Shown in pieces: positions 28,576-41,249 of a DNA stretch of 64,000 bases. Under the pieces are notes generated by a model. That model saw nothing but the letters and a program-made list of their open reading frames with translations. It was not told the origin of the DNA and did no database searches. The DNA lies in contig NZ_MARB01000003.1 of assembly GCF_001715975.1 (NCBI RefSeq), positions 1 to 64,000 of the forward strand, in the 5' to 3' direction. The DNA is from Candidatus Thiodiazotropha endolucinida (GTDB lineage Bacteria > Pseudomonadota > Gammaproteobacteria > Chromatiales > Chromatiaceae). The position numbers and the translations under genes were made by a program. Each line of letters opens with the position of its first letter. Position 1 is the stretch's first letter.

Positions 28576-29824
28576 TTGAATTCTAAAAGAGTAGCTATCA
28601 TCCTTCTGGCCGCATGGAGCTTGGTGGTGCTGATCTCTCTCGGCTGGAACATTAAACACACCCAAGATGAACATCACCATTTTCTGGAAGATACCGCACG
28701 CCTGATGTTTGATCATATCAAGCTGGTCAGAGATTGGAGCGCCGGTCACGGTGGAGTTTATGTGCCCGTCTCAGAATCCACCCCGCCTAACGAGTACCTT
28801 GAGGTCGATAACCGGGATATTGAGGTAAGCGACGAACTGACCTTAACACTGATCAATCCAGCCTATATGACTCGGCAATTATCGGAACTTGCTGCGCATA
28901 ACAAAGGCATCCAGTTACACATCACCAGTCTTAAACCTATCCGACCAAGTAACCAACCTACCGACCTGGAACGGGAAGCGCTTCTCATGTTCGAAACCGG
29001 TGCTACACAGGAGTACAGCCACTTGATTGAGGATCAAAGCGGATTGCGTTTCTTCTACATGGCACCCTTGATGACCACTCGCGCTTGTCTTCGTTGTCAT
29101 GAAAAGCAGGGGTATCAGCGTCACGATTCCCGATGTCAATACAGCTCCAATCTGGGGATTGGTTATTGGCCACATCACCATAGGCATGATCGGCATAACG
29201 TTAATCACCAGCCTCTCTCAAAGGCTATCCGCAAGCTATAAAAAAATGCATCAGCAATCAATCATCGATGCACTGACCGGCATTCCGAATCGTCGTCATT
29301 TTATCGATCGACTACTTGCCGAATACCGTCGCGCCAGCCGCAACTCAACCGCATTGACACTGATGATCTGTGATATTGATTATTTCAAGCTTTACAATGA
29401 CTCTCTTGGCCACTTGGAAGGTGATGAATGTCTCGTAAAAGTGGCGAAAACAATTCATTCGTCACTACAACGTGGCGGCGACCTGTGTGCGCGCTACGGG
29501 GGAGAGGAGTTCATTATCATTCTACCCAATACGGATTTAAACGGCGGAGAGAAAGTCGCCAGGCGCATCAAACAGGATATTGCCGCCTTAGCCATACCTC
29601 ATCCCAATTCGCCTGTCGGTGAACATCTTACCCTGAGTATTGGCGTGGCCACCGAGGCCCATGACTATCCGTCCCAATATAAACTGATCAAGCGGGCTGA
29701 CGACGCACTCTACCGTAGTAAGCAACTGGGACGAAACCGCATTGAAATTGACGCCCATGACCATAGTGTAAGCGCCTCGTCAGAAATAGTGGTGTTACAG
29801 GATAAAATCAATCAACCCGGTTAG
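28576..29824 (+). pseudogene. DUF3365-GGDEF diguanylate cyclase broken by a small deletion
   Basis: The first frame (28576 to about 29118) encodes a TM anchor (residues 5-24) and a periplasmic DUF3365/Tll0287-type haem-binding domain ending CLRCHEKQGYQ with its CxxCH site. The frame then changes: from about 29108 the +2 frame encodes GISVTIPDVNTAPIWG, a second TM (IGMIGITLITSL) and an intact GGDEF domain (DALTGIPNRRHF, RYGGEEF). In intact relatives, CHxKQGY is followed by about six residues and then GGISVxIP. Here the sequence jumps from one GGTATCAG-like segment to the next, which fits a deletion between short direct repeats that removed about 20 bases and shifted the frame. The start is TTG at 28576. 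The GGDEF half could still be made from internal starts. Confidence 0.75.
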
Positions 29825-29914: not shown

Positions 29915-29934
29915 AGGGCCTGTTAACAGGTCCT
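29915..29934. repeat. Palindrome of two repeat-element ends
   Basis: AGGGCCTGTTAACAGGTCCT is a near-perfect 20-bp palindrome composed of two AGGGCCTGTTAACA element ends fused head to head. The CTAG that follows supplies the TAG stop codon of the histidine kinase read on the minus strand, so the repeat defines the C-terminus of that protein. Confidence 0.7.
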
Positions 29935-30637
29935 AGGGTAATAGTATTGAGAAGACGCCTCCGTCAGCATCTGCGCGATTCGCCAACTCAACACGGCCAC
30001 GAACTCCGTCATGCTGATGCAGATCCAGCACAGTTTGGGTAAAAAAGAGTCCTAAGCCGGTATTATTGGTGATAAAGCCCGACTCAGGATTCATGAATCC
30101 GTTTTGTTGTGCCAGTATATTACTGGGAAATCCCTCTCCATTGTCCTCGACCCCAATAGTCAAACCATGAGGCGACGCCTCCGCAGTCAATCGAATGCTA
30201 TCGCCGGTATAACGCAAGGCATTGCTGATCGCATTCCCCATAACGCCCATCATCAGATTTCTGTCGAAATACCAATACAGGTCGTGATCACACTCAATAT
30301 CGTACTCGATCCCCTTTTGCCTCATTATGACAGCATGCTCCAGCAGTGCCTCGTCCAGAAAATCCTTGACTGAATGGGCATCCACATTCAACAGATAGAC
30401 TCCCTCCTCGACCTTGAACAGGGTCAATAACTTGACCAGATTGTTATTGATCCTACGCACCTCATATTCCATATCAGCGCATTGTTGAATTCCGGCACAC
30501 CCTTCCATCTCACTGCTCTCTGAAATCGTACCGATGAACTTGAGCAATATACCCAATGAGTTTTTTATATCATGGGACACCATTGCAAAAGCCGATTTTA
30601 GATCGATCCCATCCCTGTCATCCTTAATTTTGTCCAC
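29933..30637 (-). CDS. Soluble histidine kinase without sensor domain
   Basis: About 234 residues: a dimerisation/phosphoacceptor helix (FAMVSHDIKNSLGILLKF, His in the H-box) directly at the N-terminus, then a HATPase domain with N-box (GNAISNALRYTG), G1 (VEDNGEGFPS) and G2 (NTGLGLFFTQTV). There is no membrane segment and no PAS or GAF input, so it must receive its signal from a partner, most simply the REC-TPR protein encoded just upstream. I choose the GTG at 30637, which has GAGGAGG at good spacing; a TTG at 30652 is less likely. It overlaps the end of the REC-TPR gene by 14 bases. Its last codons lie within the repeat palindrome. Confidence 0.85.
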   Translation of the reverse strand: MDKIKDDRDGIDLKSAFAMVSHDIKNSLGILLKFIGTISESSEMEGCAGIQQCADMEYEVRRINNNLVKLLTLFKVEEGVYLLNVDAHSVKDFLDEALLEHAVIMRQKGIEYDIECDHDLYWYFDRNLMMGVMGNAISNALRYTGDSIRLTAEASPHGLTIGVEDNGEGFPSNILAQQNGFMNPESGFITNNTGLGLFFTQTVLDLHQHDGVRGRVELANRADADGGVFSILLP

Positions 30638-32264
30638 TAAAACCCTCCTCAACTGAAACCGGTGTAATCTTATTCAACATATCAAGAAAGCGGCCGGCGT
30701 CTGAATCCTGGTGATCCCTTTCAAGCAATCGGTTAAGCGAGAATCGGCACCTGAAATGGTAACCTGGATCAATACCGTTATCACGCATGTAATTGATCAT
30801 TGCCCCAGCCGCCATCAACATCAGCGTTCTATTCCTTGGATAACGCTCAATGGTGTCGTTTAGCAAAGTAATCGCCTGCTTCAGTCTGTCTGAACGTAAC
30901 AGTTCGGTACACTTTACATGTATCTGCTGCAATTCAGTCCTGGCAATTGAAACCAATTCTTCAATATGATGATCCCTGCCATGTTGCAGCATCAGCTGAC
31001 GGACACGGTCTATCCAGCGTTCATCGTCATGGTGATTGCCGAGCAGCACTTTCAACAGCTCCTGCGCCTCATCGGATTTTGACAATTGAAACAGGTCATC
31101 GGCAGCATCCAGTAAATGATGGGCGGTAACATCCCTTTTATGCTCATCAACCAGTCTTACTATTTCATCAAGATAGATTTCAAGACCTGTCATCACACCC
31201 TGATGATGTTGCGCCAGCGCCTGGCCGCATAACATTTGGATACGGTCTGCCGGCTGATGACTGAAGCGCTTACGCCCTTCACTGAGCAGTTTTACCATCT
31301 TTGGTCTGCGGCCAGTATTTTGGTAGATATTCGCCAAGTACCTGTATTCCTGTGCGCTGGCAAAACACGAATTTCTTCCCCAGCGTATGGCAGCCTGATA
31401 GGCCCTCTCAGCTCTGACGGCATCGCCGTTGCGCTCCGCCAACTGTCCAAGCTTCCTTTGCCTGACAACCGCTTTGGGGGACAAATCAACTGCCTCTTGC
31501 AACAGATGTTGCGCCTCTTCGGTATCCCCTCTCTTCTCCAACAACCGGACCAGCCAATCATAGACCTCGAGGTAGAGGTGGTTTTGTTCAATCAGCGTTC
31601 TGAATTCCACTTCGGCCCGGTCATGATTGTCTTTCAGAAAATCGATCTTGCTCAATCCGAATCGAGCCCAGGGAAAATTGCGAATCGCCAAAATCTCTTG
31701 ATAGATCTTTTCGGCTTCGTCAACACGCTTGATATCCAAGCACAGCTCTGCCTGGAGTTTAGCCAGATAGAGTCGCTGTTTGAGATCCTTACCGCAGCGG
31801 TCCCGACATAGATCTATGGCACTCAATTTGTCATCACGAATAAGCGCATCATCAATCGCCTTCAGTTGACGTTTTCTGTTTAATGCCACTGTCAAACGGT
31901 GGTGCAACACCTCCCGATTAATCGGTTTCACCATATAGTCATCGGGCTGATGCTCCAATGCGCTCATCACCATCGGCATATTGCTTTCTGCCGTGATCAT
32001 GAAAAAGGTGGCCGCATGCCCCAGGTAACCGAGATACCTCGCCTCTTCAAGAACCTGCTGTCCGTCTTTTCCATCACCCAGGTTATAGTCACATATCACT
32101 ACGTCGTAACTATTGTTTGCCAGCAGCTTCAGAGCCTTTTCACCCGAGGCACAGGTTGTGACATCGGTTGCGCCATAACTGGTAAGCATCCCCTTAAAGG
32201 AGACCCGCATCTGGTCAAAATCGTCGATTATCAGGTAGTTGAGGTTTTGCCGTAGTTCTTCCAT
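30624..32264 (-). CDS. REC-TPR response regulator
   Basis: A 546-residue cytosolic protein: receiver domain at residues 8-125 (DD pair in LIIDDFDQM, phosphoacceptor Asp59 in VVICDYNLG, Lys in YMVKPIN) followed by about ten TPR-like helical hairpins (residues 150-530, such as ARFGLSKIDFLKDNHDRAEVEF and YRYLANIYQNTGRRP). There is no DNA-binding output. Receiver-TPR proteins such as VieB of Vibrio act by binding a kinase or other partner. The kinase gene overlaps its 3' end, which supports a physical complex. An FNR-type box lies 113 bases upstream of the start codon, at a distance fitting class I or II activation. Confidence 0.88.
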   Translation of the reverse strand: MEELRQNLNYLIIDDFDQMRVSFKGMLTSYGATDVTTCASGEKALKLLANNSYDVVICDYNLGDGKDGQQVLEEARYLGYLGHAATFFMITAESNMPMVMSALEHQPDDYMVKPINREVLHHRLTVALNRKRQLKAIDDALIRDDKLSAIDLCRDRCGKDLKQRLYLAKLQAELCLDIKRVDEAEKIYQEILAIRNFPWARFGLSKIDFLKDNHDRAEVEFRTLIEQNHLYLEVYDWLVRLLEKRGDTEEAQHLLQEAVDLSPKAVVRQRKLGQLAERNGDAVRAERAYQAAIRWGRNSCFASAQEYRYLANIYQNTGRRPKMVKLLSEGRKRFSHQPADRIQMLCGQALAQHHQGVMTGLEIYLDEIVRLVDEHKRDVTAHHLLDAADDLFQLSKSDEAQELLKVLLGNHHDDERWIDRVRQLMLQHGRDHHIEELVSIARTELQQIHVKCTELLRSDRLKQAITLLNDTIERYPRNRTLMLMAAGAMINYMRDNGIDPGYHFRCRFSLNRLLERDHQDSDAGRFLDMLNKITPVSVEEGFSGQN

Positions 32265-32376
32265 GAGAATAGATCCATCCCTTGGTTAAGCATGAGAGGC
32301 GCTAGGATAAGCGCCTCGGTACATAAATCTCATATCGCGCAAATCTGTACGCGCTTAAACGGAATTGTAAACTCTG

Positions 32377-32390
32377 TTGATTTAGATCAA
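32377..32390. promoter_or_regulatory. FNR/Anr-type box
   Basis: TTGATTTAGATCAA is an exact match to the FNR consensus TTGAT-N4-ATCAA. It lies in the divergent gap between the REC-TPR gene (start 32264, minus) and the NarL-type kinase gene (start 32641, plus). By position (113 bases from one start and 250 from the other) the leftward operon is the more natural target. The remaining gap of about 375 bases has no other feature that I recognise. Confidence 0.7.
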
Positions 32391-32640
32391 TTAGAATACG
32401 AACAAGATGACTATTCCAATTAGCTATACTCCTCAACACTGAAGACCAAATCCCTTTACCAATCAGCAGATCATAACATCGGCCCTGTTTAAGGAATTAA
32501 CTTAACAGATCACTCAAGCTGTTAAATGGACAAACGCTATATCCATCATGTTGCAGAGCATTTGATCAATCAATGGATGTATTGGATTGCAATACCCTCG
32601 AACCTGTAGATCCGCTCAAGTTCGCAAATAAGAGAAAAAA

Positions 32641-33399
32641 ATGTCGGTAGCTAAAAAGAATACAATTCGTCACGCCTTCACTCACTCTCAATTACCGGAT
32701 ACAAATAAAATCTCTAGTCGACAGAAGAGTTCTTCTTCATCTTCGATCGATGAAGAGGAGAGAAAAAGACTATCGCGTGAGTTGCATGACGGGTTGGGAC
32801 AGCTTTTGACTACGATAGGATTGCAGGTAAAACAATGCCTGAATCATTATGACAGCAATTCATTCCCCAGCCTGTCACCACATGACCACAAAGCCTCGTT
32901 ACAACAGATTTCAACCATGGTGAAAGAAGCGATTGGTGAAGTCAGGTCCATATGCAGCGCTATTCGACCCTCCATTCTCGATGACCTCGGCGTCCTGGCG
33001 GCCATCTCCTGGCAATGCAGGCAGATCTCACAGGCCTCCCCATCTTTAAAGATTGTGACCGATTACAGGATTGAAGAGAACCAGATAGCCGTTGCTTACA
33101 GAACAGCAATCTACCGCATCGTACAGGAATCATTAAACAATGCCCTGAAATACTCCCATGCGAGCCGAATCGGAGTCACACTCTCCCTGCAAGATGAATC
33201 GGTCCACTTGAGTGTTATTGACAATGGCATAGGATTCGACATTGCCTCTATCCACGAGGGGCTTGGTCTGGGATTAATGAGCATGCGTGAAAGGGTGGAA
33301 TCGGTGAACGGCAAACTGGAAATCGCTGCCGCCGTCAATTCGGGAGTTGAAATTCAAGCATATTTTCCACTTCGAACAATGACACTCTGCGACACTTGA
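32641..33399 (+). CDS. NarL-family sensor kinase lacking a sensor
   Basis: A 252-residue kinase of the HisKA_3 type (NarX/DesK/UhpB class). The H-box is EERKRLSRELHDGLGQLL with the phospho-His near residue 48, followed by the long dimer helices and a HATPase domain (ESLNNALKYSHA N-box, VIDNGIGFD, GLGLGLMSMRERVESV). The first 40 residues are Ser-rich and disordered; no membrane span or input domain. Normally such kinases pair with a LuxR-type regulator; none lies in the window, so the partner is elsewhere. It is read away from the FNR-type box. Confidence 0.85.
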   Translation: MSVAKKNTIRHAFTHSQLPDTNKISSRQKSSSSSSIDEEERKRLSRELHDGLGQLLTTIGLQVKQCLNHYDSNSFPSLSPHDHKASLQQISTMVKEAIGEVRSICSAIRPSILDDLGVLAAISWQCRQISQASPSLKIVTDYRIEENQIAVAYRTAIYRIVQESLNNALKYSHASRIGVTLSLQDESVHLSVIDNGIGFDIASIHEGLGLGLMSMRERVESVNGKLEIAAAVNSGVEIQAYFPLRTMTLCDT

Positions 33400-39037: not shown

Positions 39038-39051
39038 TTGATTTTTATCAA
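39038..39051 (+). promoter_or_regulatory. FNR/Anr-type box upstream of the octahaem operon
   Basis: TTGATTTTTATCAA is an exact TTGAT-N4-ATCAA match. The next gene on the plus strand, the octahaem cytochrome, starts about 490 bases away, which would mean a long leader or a missing short gene between. Anaerobic induction of a cytochrome of this type is expected, so the match is meaningful but the distance is unusual. Confidence 0.55.
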
Positions 39052-39542: not shown

Positions 39543-41249
39543 ATGAAGATGCATAAACAAGCCAAGCTGGTTATCAACCCCAGAATACTGGCCTGTCTTA
39601 CGGCCTTTCTACTGGGAATTTCAAACCAAACCCTAGCCGACACCAAGCACACTGCCGCCACGGAACATGACGATATAGATATGAACTTCCGCGTCATCAC
39701 GGATACCAAACCGAGTATCCGCGATGATGGCGAGTCAACAGCCGATCACAGTAAATTCGAAGTCCTTGAAGGCCCCTTTGAGCACGGCCCGGAAGTCACC
39801 AGGGCCTGTCTATCCTGTCACACCGAGGCGGGTCGCCACTTCATGAAGTCGGTACACTGGACCTGGGAATATGTTAATCCCGAGACTGGCCAGATACTGG
39901 GCAAGAAACATCTGATCAACACCTTCTGCACCAATGCCCGCGGCAACGAGGGGATGTGCGCCCAGTGCCACGCCGGATATGGCTGGAAGGACCAACACTA
40001 TGATTTCTCCAATCAGGACAACATTGACTGCCTGGTCTGCCACGACCGTACCGGCACCTATTACAAGACACCGAATAGTATGGGCAACAAGGCGTGTTCG
40101 GTGATGTTCGAGGGCAAACAGCCGATCCAGTGGGCAAAGGTGGCGCAGAGTGTCGGCAAACCGGGGCGTGAGAACTGTGGCTCCTGCCATTTTTACGGTG
40201 GTGGCGGCGATGGCGTAAAGCACGGCGACCTGGACTCCTCGCTGAAATCACCCAACAGGCAGCTCGATGTGCACATGGACGCCGGGGGCCTCAATTTCGC
40301 CTGCACAACCTGCCATGTAACCAAGCAGCATCTGTGGGCAGGTAGCCACTATAACGTCATGGCACACGACACTGAGGGGCTGGGACTGCCGGGTGAGCGT
40401 CGCGACGTGGCTACCTGCGAGTCGTGCCACGGCGACACACCCCATAAGAAGACCGAACTGGTAGGTATCAAGCTCAATGGCCATGTGGACAAGATCGCCT
40501 GTCAGACATGCCATATACCCACCATCGCACGCGGCGGCGTCGCCACAATGGTCGACTGGGATTGGCGCACGGCCGGTAGGACCAAGGACGGCGAGGGCTT
40601 CAAGGAGAAGAACTACACCCAGGGCAATGGTGATCATCGCGCCACTTATAAATCGATCAAGGGTAATTTCGAGTACGATGAGAATCTGATACCGCACTAT
40701 GGCTGGTTCGACGGTCAGATGCGTTATACCACCATCGACACCAGATTCGACCCATCCACGGGTCCGGTGGAGATCAACGGTTTCAAAGGCTCTCAGGACG
40801 ATGGCACCTCCCGCATCTGGCCCTTCAAGCGTATGCATACGGTGCAACCCTACGACAAGGGCAATAACACCATGGTCTACATGCACCTGTGGGGGGACGA
40901 TGATGACGCCTACTGGGGCAACTACGATTTTGCCCGCGCCATCAGGGTCGGCATGGCAAACAACAATATCCCCTACAGCGGTAAGTACGACTTTGTCGAG
41001 ACCTACTCCTACTGGCCCATCACCCACATGGTAGCACCCGGCGAGGATGCCCTCGGCTGTGCCGAATGCCATAGCCGCGACGGTCGTCTCGACGATCTCA
41101 AGGGATTCTACATACCGGGCCGTGACAGTTTCCGCTGGCTCGACATCCTAGGCTACTTCGCAATGGGCGGCGCGTTGGTGGGTGTACTTTTCCACGGCCT
41201 GTTGCGCAAACTCATAGGCAAGAAAAACCGGCAGAGGAGCGCATCATGA
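39543..41249 (+). CDS. Octahaem c-type cytochrome, tetrathionate reductase (Otr) family
   Basis: A 568-residue periplasmic protein with a signal peptide (residues 1-32), a C-terminal membrane anchor (about 533-555) and eight CxxCH sites: residues 89-93, 139-143, 163-167, 212-216, 254-258, 292-296, 320-324 and 506-510. The arrangement matches octahaem tetrathionate reductase; family members also reduce nitrite or hydroxylamine. The active haem of Shewanella Otr has a lysine ligand; K149 in GYGWKD just after site 2 is a candidate here. The C-terminal anchor and the cytochrome b partner encoded next indicate quinol-linked electron delivery. The direction in a sulfur oxidiser could be reductive or oxidative. 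Confidence 0.88.
   Translation: MKMHKQAKLVINPRILACLTAFLLGISNQTLADTKHTAATEHDDIDMNFRVITDTKPSIRDDGESTADHSKFEVLEGPFEHGPEVTRACLSCHTEAGRHFMKSVHWTWEYVNPETGQILGKKHLINTFCTNARGNEGMCAQCHAGYGWKDQHYDFSNQDNIDCLVCHDRTGTYYKTPNSMGNKACSVMFEGKQPIQWAKVAQSVGKPGRENCGSCHFYGGGGDGVKHGDLDSSLKSPNRQLDVHMDAGGLNFACTTCHVTKQHLWAGSHYNVMAHDTEGLGLPGERRDVATCESCHGDTPHKKTELVGIKLNGHVDKIACQTCHIPTIARGGVATMVDWDWRTAGRTKDGEGFKEKNYTQGNGDHRATYKSIKGNFEYDENLIPHYGWFDGQMRYTTIDTRFDPSTGPVEINGFKGSQDDGTSRIWPFKRMHTVQPYDKGNNTMVYMHLWGDDDDAYWGNYDFARAIRVGMANNNIPYSGKYDFVETYSYWPITHMVAPGEDALGCAECHSRDGRLDDLKGFYIPGRDSFRWLDILGYFAMGGALVGVLFHGLLRKLIGKKNRQRSAS

Follow-up and report, generated by a model that had tools for sequence, protein, structure and literature searches.

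What do the three soluble signalling proteins encoded around a single FNR-type site in Candidatus Thiodiazotropha endolucinida have to do with one another? The locus lies in a stretch of 64,000 nucleotides (contig NZ_MARB01000003.1, positions 1 to 64,000; hereafter the window), in which a response regulator made of a receiver domain and TPR repeats (REC-TPR) and a small soluble kinase are encoded divergently from a kinase of the HisKA_3 type. A preliminary description, made from the sequence alone, took all three genes for one module. We find that REC-TPR and the small kinase are a widespread two-component pair, and that the HisKA_3 kinase is a separate neighbour. Probably, and with some reservation, the core of the locus is a two-gene cytoplasmic two-component system in which REC-TPR is a phosphorylation-switched adaptor, tied to FNR in this genus, with a protein carrying a VWA domain as candidate partner and the HisKA_3 kinase standing apart. 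The features of the locus are as follows:

29933..30637, minus strand: soluble histidine kinase of DHp and catalytic (CA) domain only, 234 amino acids, GTG start, HATPase_c
about 30572-30574, minus strand: codon of the phospho-acceptor His of this kinase
30624..32264, minus strand: REC-TPR response regulator, 546 amino acids, Pfam Response_reg and TPR repeats; receiver at about residues 11-124 with phospho-Asp D59, TPR matches at about 170-337, C-terminal part without a Pfam match
32377..32390: FNR-type site, TTGATTTAGATCAA, between the divergent units
32641..33399, plus strand: soluble HisKA_3 kinase of the NarL-partner type, 252 amino acids, HisKA_3 and HATPase_c

This layout agrees with the preliminary description. 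If the kinase is read from GTG 30637, a start closely preceded by GAGGAGG, its gene and that of REC-TPR overlap by 14 bases as claimed (29 bases with the mechanical TTG start). The NarL-type kinase at 32641-33399 is indeed divergent, on the plus strand, and sensorless, having only HisKA_3 and HATPase_c. The perfect site is read at 32377-32390 between the units; the REC-TPR start is 112-126 bp downstream of it and the HisKA_3 kinase start about 250 bp away. A Pfam scan found no DNA-binding domain in REC-TPR, the small kinase or the HisKA_3 kinase, and inspection found no membrane helices in the three proteins, also as described.

The pairing of REC-TPR with the small kinase was followed in a relatives set of 56 genomes, in the 22 genomes of the window's genus (G000 is the window's genome), and in a class sample of 369 genomes drawn evenly from the window's class. 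Two types of REC-TPR occur in the relatives set. The A-type (window, G004, G005, G006, G013, G014, G018, G019 and G020; 56-97% identity) always lies between ilvC and argG, split over two contigs in G020, and the B-type (about 31% identity) has a different genomic place. Among the matches listed, 9 of the 22 genomes have the A-type, 10 have the B-type, none has both, and neither type was found in G011, G015 and G021. From the relatives set, 25 loci with a match beyond the receiver were fetched, window included and a second, weaker match in G025 left out. The small kinase is directly downstream of REC-TPR in 24 of them, and a contig end truncates the remaining one (G042). The kinase of G016 is intact. 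In G014, a 2.6-Mb genome without a VWA match, REC-TPR (L046) is disrupted into two pieces, one with a stop.

The same adjacency was found in the class sample, where REC-TPR (E <= 1e-40) is present in 45 genomes and the kinase profile (E <= 1e-20) matches 51, strongly (E <= 6.4e-44) in 38. Eighteen weaker kinase matches (E 1.5e-23 to 8.7e-21), located in longer frames, were left out. In 34 of the 38 genomes REC-TPR is followed on its own strand by the strong match, within 280 bp of the matched part in 33 of them and at 689 in one. The other four comprise two on separate contigs, one at 12 kb and one without REC-TPR at the threshold. Both genes are present in 37 genomes, REC-TPR only in 8 and the kinase only in 1. 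Tree distances of 40 adjacent REC-TPR/kinase pairs correlate with r = 0.84, a value that shared descent alone could give. There is no constant third gene in 63 clustered loci, the commonest other neighbour within three genes being found in 7. Pfam scans of 28 class-sample neighbour proteins, 7 neighbours in the relatives and L039 returned varied functions, including UreD, PdxJ, an RND pump, PilZ, an aminotransferase and methyltransferases. Taken together, REC-TPR and the kinase are a widespread two-component pair whose adjacency recurs far beyond chance.

The catalytic residues of both partners are conserved. With REC-TPR rows of 500 amino acids or less left out of the alignment, D59 of the receiver is present in 51 of 54 rows, T91 and K113 in 54/54, and position 14 is D or E in all 54. 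In the small kinase, the H-box His (H27) is found in 44 of 45 aligned rows, and the N-box Asn (N144) as well as D170, G172 and G174 in 45/45. In profile comparison the kinase aligns with solved DHp-CA structures, 6paj (SrrB) among them, and the match begins at profile position 6, so that it takes in the H-box. The ratio of nonsynonymous to synonymous substitution rates (dN/dS) between the window and G004 is about 0.08 for REC-TPR, 0.16 for the kinase and 0.14 for the HisKA_3 kinase, and the low values for the first two indicate purifying selection on the pair. Because of the conserved H-box, the DHp-CA profile match and the dN/dS value, the soluble HATPase protein has the appearance of a genuine, sensorless histidine kinase. 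The pair thus combines a kinase with phospho-acceptor His, N and G boxes and a receiver with Asp, Thr/Ser, Lys and an acidic pocket.

These residues bear on the two mechanisms that had been suggested for the locus. In partner switching of the RsbW/anti-sigma type, the HATPase protein lacks an H-box and works with a STAS antagonist. Here the H-box is nearly invariant (44/45 rows), the profile is SrrB-like with DHp and CA, and no STAS domain was found by Pfam in six proteins scanned at the window locus; we rejected RsbW-type partner switching on these grounds. The phosphorelay is not supported either, since neither an Hpt domain nor a second receiver was found in the same six proteins. What stands of the suggested signalling module for anaerobic or redox use is a real pair beside an anaerobic-type site that close relatives have kept.

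The HisKA_3 kinase follows a pattern of its own. It adjoins REC-TPR in the window, G004, G006, G019 and G020 (subtype A1), and is missing there in G005, G013, G014 and G018 (subtype A2). In G015 and G021 the HisKA_3 kinase (74% identity) is at the same ilvC-argG place without REC-TPR, and G003 has a copy of 56-58% identity at that place. Either unit can thus be present on its own, which makes the HisKA_3 kinase a neighbour in its own right and no constant part of the pair. The three-gene module does not hold, and the co-conservation expected of it is seen for REC-TPR and the small kinase and fails for the HisKA_3 kinase.

A second-type HisKA_3 copy, 50-58% identical to the window protein, occurs in 19 of the 22 genus genomes (E <= 1e-30). 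The copy of the window's genome (G000:C7, L157:5031-6582) is soluble and lies tail-to-tail with a regulator of REC and GerE (LuxR-type) domains, and the arrangement is the same in 5 of 5 second-copy loci fetched (L157, L161-L164). The genes at G000:C7 come after ExbD, LpxK and cytidylyltransferase genes. The phospho-acceptor His regions of the window HisKA_3 kinase and the C7 paralog are identical at 19 of 27 positions, and the simplest reading would be that the window kinase feeds, or competes for, the LuxR-type regulator of the paralog. The window protein aligns with the kinase part of the NarX, NarQ and UhpB models, below their cut-offs. Unlike the NarX/NarQ sensors, it has 252 amino acids with HisKA_3 and HATPase as its only Pfam matches, no sensor domain and, by inspection, no helices; the paralog beside the LuxR-type regulator likewise has no sensor domain.

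Several other features of the region were noted. What lies between ilvC and argG varies across the genus, with a TIR-domain protein in G003 (L160:9713-10825), a CAP/PKD-domain protein in the A2 genomes (Pfam checked in G018) and signalling genes in others. GGDEF genes recur as neighbours of the pair, beside that of the window and at L050 and L099. The 'broken cyclase' at 28576-29824 of the window has its Tll0287-like and GGDEF parts in two overlapping frames. Its homologues in G004, G006, G015, G019, G020 and G021 are single open reading frames (ORFs) of 411-449 amino acids (Pfam checked in G015), so that among these seven genomes it is split only in the window, where a sequencing error is possible.

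We then come to the FNR-type site. Perfect TTGATNNNNATCAA places number 23 in the 4.49-Mb genome, and the pattern read backwards, used as control, gave 0; 0-4% of mononucleotide shuffles would be expected to contain a site with at most one mismatch within 450 bp. Fnr is encoded in the window's genome (above the curated cut-off), and a perfect site lies just upstream of its own gene. Fourteen proteins encoded after other sites were scanned, and eight of them are a hemerythrin, octaheme and multihaem cytochromes, NnrS, a COX3-like protein, cytochrome cd1 and a flavorubredoxin-like protein. The remaining six are an APS kinase, a rhodanese, a membrane protein and three without a match. The window itself has a second perfect FNR-type site at 39038-39051, about 500 bp upstream of an ORF for an octaheme c-type cytochrome-like protein (39543-41249).

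Upstream of REC-TPR, a perfect site is present in 5 of 5 A1 loci, with two perfect sites in G019 and one perfect plus one mismatched site in G006. The A2 loci have a one-mismatch site (GTCAA half) with different spacers 106-120 bp upstream of REC-TPR in 3 of 3 scanned; G014 (A2) was left out, and the fragments L036 and L046 were dropped for want of a usable REC-TPR start. No site with at most one mismatch was found upstream of REC-TPR in 13 B-type loci and L039, and 37 loci of the class sample gave no perfect site and four one-mismatch matches at scattered places. The aligned site of G015 and G021, both without REC-TPR, matches the consensus except for the last base. In an alignment of four lineages, 11 of the 14 site columns are invariant compared with 28% elsewhere, some neighbouring alignment windows being equally or slightly more conserved. 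An upstream site kept in relatives, in a genome that encodes Fnr, is thus found for the A-type and G015/G021 loci and not for the B-type loci or the class sample; the site proposed to recur in relatives is kept in the window's clade (A1 and A2) and absent from the distant type. The 23 copies against none in the control, the encoded Fnr and the conservation in the window's clade make the box look functional. Since it is present with REC-TPR alone (A2), with both units (A1) and, with one mismatch, with the HisKA_3 kinase alone, the box belongs to a shared intergenic region and, as far as its distribution tells, can serve either unit.

Outside the genus, REC-TPR and the kinase have a recurrent third companion in certain families. 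They share an operon with a VWA protein in G025, G070, G319, G230 and G098; a shared operon that also brings an acidic cytoplasmic tail was seen in three families. By inspection, the linked VWA proteins have a signal peptide and a C-terminal membrane helix. The same operons, except in G098, also encode a second, small membrane protein whose tail is acidic; the gene order is reversed in G025. In the order of G230 (24 genomes, one family), REC-TPR is present in 16 genomes and VWA in 20; VWA is just upstream on the same strand in 13 of the 16 REC-TPR genomes and on a different contig in the other 3, and 4 of the 8 genomes without REC-TPR have VWA. In the class sample, with 8 weak VWA genomes dropped from 111, both are present in 33 genomes, REC-TPR only in 12, VWA only in 70 and neither in 254. 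Counted by family, VWA is found in 20 of 29 REC-TPR families compared with 53 of an assumed 178 (p 1.9e-6). In the window's genus, VWA is present in 21 of 22 genomes. A CoxE-type VWA protein beside L103 had no BLAST match to the other VWA proteins and was not counted.

The NCBIfam model TIGR03503 gives a partial-length match, below the cut-off, to the linked VWA proteins of G025 and G230 and to the copy of the window's genome. It is a hypothetical-protein model, and no paper naming it was found in the open-access literature searched, most subscription papers being outside the search; nor did the same search find a described function for the pair of VWA and acidic coiled-coil proteins. In the window's genome this pair, a TIGR03503-like VWA gene and an acidic coiled-coil membrane protein gene, is at L226:7077-10104 (G000:C13), and such gene pairs are common in the class sample.

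The acidic tail carries a short motif. IAEIPx[DE][LA] is found in the tail ending just before REC-TPR in 14 of 16 linked operons (4/5 and 10/11), counts that are not independent because the linked systems within one order are related. It is also present in a contig-edge fragment of G403, and in genus g79 the acidic tail is fused to the VWA protein. The tail proteins of the two families are otherwise about 18-28% identical. The motif was found in 0 of 15 stand-alone tail proteins, that of the window's genome included, in 0 of 6 unlinked VWA loci of the same order (some shortened by contig ends) and nowhere in the 3.7 kb upstream of the unlinked G414 REC-TPR. A stricter form has no other occurrence in six frames of 2.1 Mb of fetched loci, and a looser form has none within the window. 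Because this short motif is kept in a drifting acidic tail with REC-TPR as the next gene, it suggests a candidate docking peptide for REC-TPR. The output, which the preliminary description called unknown, is narrowed in this way to candidates, the LuxR-type regulator beside the HisKA_3 paralog and the VWA/acidic-tail partner seen in other families.

How a REC-TPR protein may act can be considered in comparison with VieB of the VieSAB system of Vibrio cholerae, the one worked REC-TPR regulator found in the literature searched. As reported (PMC4352251), VieB has a receiver followed by TPR repeats and an unannotated C-terminal half, a conserved phospho-Asp and no helix-turn-helix output, a layout like that of the window REC-TPR; it is encoded with the hybrid kinase VieS and the phosphodiesterase/helix-turn-helix regulator VieA, and inhibits VieS. 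The window REC-TPR differs in that its usual partner is a small sensorless kinase. None of the six proteins scanned at the window locus was VieS- or VieA-like, one hybrid kinase (L108) was found among the 28 class-sample neighbour proteins, and plasmid matches in unannotated Aeromonas, Photobacterium and Vibrio records showed nothing callable VieS or VieA, judged by ORF sizes and profile matches only. RcbAB of Vibrio vulnificus are TPR proteins encoded together in a two-gene operon, and each acts on the other through TPR contact; theirs is a c-di-GMP system with TPR and GGDEF domains, and the abstract names no kinase or receiver (PMC12282931).

The likeness to VieB leads to a different reading, in which REC-TPR would be an anti-kinase. 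It would bind one or more further histidine kinases, such as the HisKA_3 kinase or the C7 paralog, and hold them inhibited until the small kinase of the pair phosphorylates it and so lifts the inhibition. A second kinase encoded divergently across the same FNR-type site would fit such a role. The association with the HisKA_3 kinase is not constant, however, and the REC-TPR family has a dedicated small kinase, unlike VieB as described, so that we regard the anti-kinase as unlikely. More doubtful again is the reading in which the site is there chiefly for the HisKA_3 kinase, with the REC-TPR pair only adjoining it. The one-mismatch site at the homologous place in G015 and G021, without REC-TPR, speaks for it, as does the case of G005, a genome without the first type, whose second HisKA_3 kinase has a perfect site a short way upstream (L164:5252-5265). 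In the A2 genomes, on the other hand, the one-mismatch site stays upstream of REC-TPR (3/3 scanned) with no HisKA_3 kinase there, and G003 has the kinase at this locus and no such site. A single FNR-controlled module of all three genes, whether phosphorelay or partner switch, is very improbable. The intergenic site common to all of them in the A1 clade favours it, but each unit is found without the other with the site retained, the six locus proteins have no Hpt, second receiver or STAS domain, and the HisKA_3 kinase is a paralog of a kinase that stands beside a LuxR-type regulator.

Several observations also weigh against the adaptor system that we favour. For the pair, 8 of the 45 REC-TPR genomes have no kinase at the threshold used. 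For the site, 10 of the 23 genomic copies lie inside ORFs as drawn, no FNR-type site precedes the HisKA_3 kinase that G003 has at this locus, and the scan around the box found no sigma-70-like promoter from which to tell activation from repression. For the partner, the co-occurrence of REC-TPR and VWA in the class sample (Fisher p 1.3e-11) is uncorrected for phylogeny; G011, G015 and G021 have VWA without REC-TPR, among the matches listed; and 2 of the 16 linked systems (G025 and G412) lack the motif. In the window's genome the VWA and tail proteins are unlinked to the pair, at G000:C13, and the tail protein there is without the motif. Since 12 of the 45 REC-TPR genomes have no strong VWA match, VWA cannot be the sole partner.

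Regardless, we propose that the sensorless DHp-CA kinase would phosphorylate, and probably also dephosphorylate, D59 of REC-TPR. Having no DNA-binding or enzymatic output domain, REC-TPR would act as an adaptor switched by phosphorylation, its TPR solenoid gripping a partner protein. Lacking a sensor, the kinase may receive its input by joining a complex with a membrane protein. The other families offer the best candidate for this partner, which would be the exported VWA protein whose acidic cytoplasmic tail bears IAEIPx[DE][LA]. In this genus, an FNR-family regulator binding at 32377-32390 would tie transcription to anoxia or nitrogen oxides, and the HisKA_3 kinase across the promoter would be a separate unit on the same box, its probable target being the LuxR-type regulator that adjoins its paralog. 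A bolder extension, which we hold as a tentative possibility, is a four-part envelope system, undescribed in the open-access literature searched, with REC-TPR and the sensorless kinase as its cytoplasmic half. The outer half would be the VWA protein, exported and anchored in the membrane, either by itself or together with a separate acidic coiled-coil membrane protein; the halves would be joined by docking of IAEIPx[DE][LA] on REC-TPR, switched by phosphorylation of D59, and FNR control would have been added in the window's genus.

The system is ordinary in kind, being a two-component system with a VieB-like layout. What is new is the FNR-type box kept in the clade and, elsewhere, the recurrent VWA/acidic-tail partner with its motif. 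A common sensorless pair, with both genes in 37 of the 369 class-sample genomes, thereby gains a concrete protein as candidate partner and a short peptide as possible docking site. In one clade of bacteria that are likely sulfur symbionts, such a pair appears to have been placed at a control site of the anoxia/nitrogen-oxide type, and a second REC-TPR system with a clear partner hypothesis would help to decide how regulators act without DNA binding or enzymatic output.

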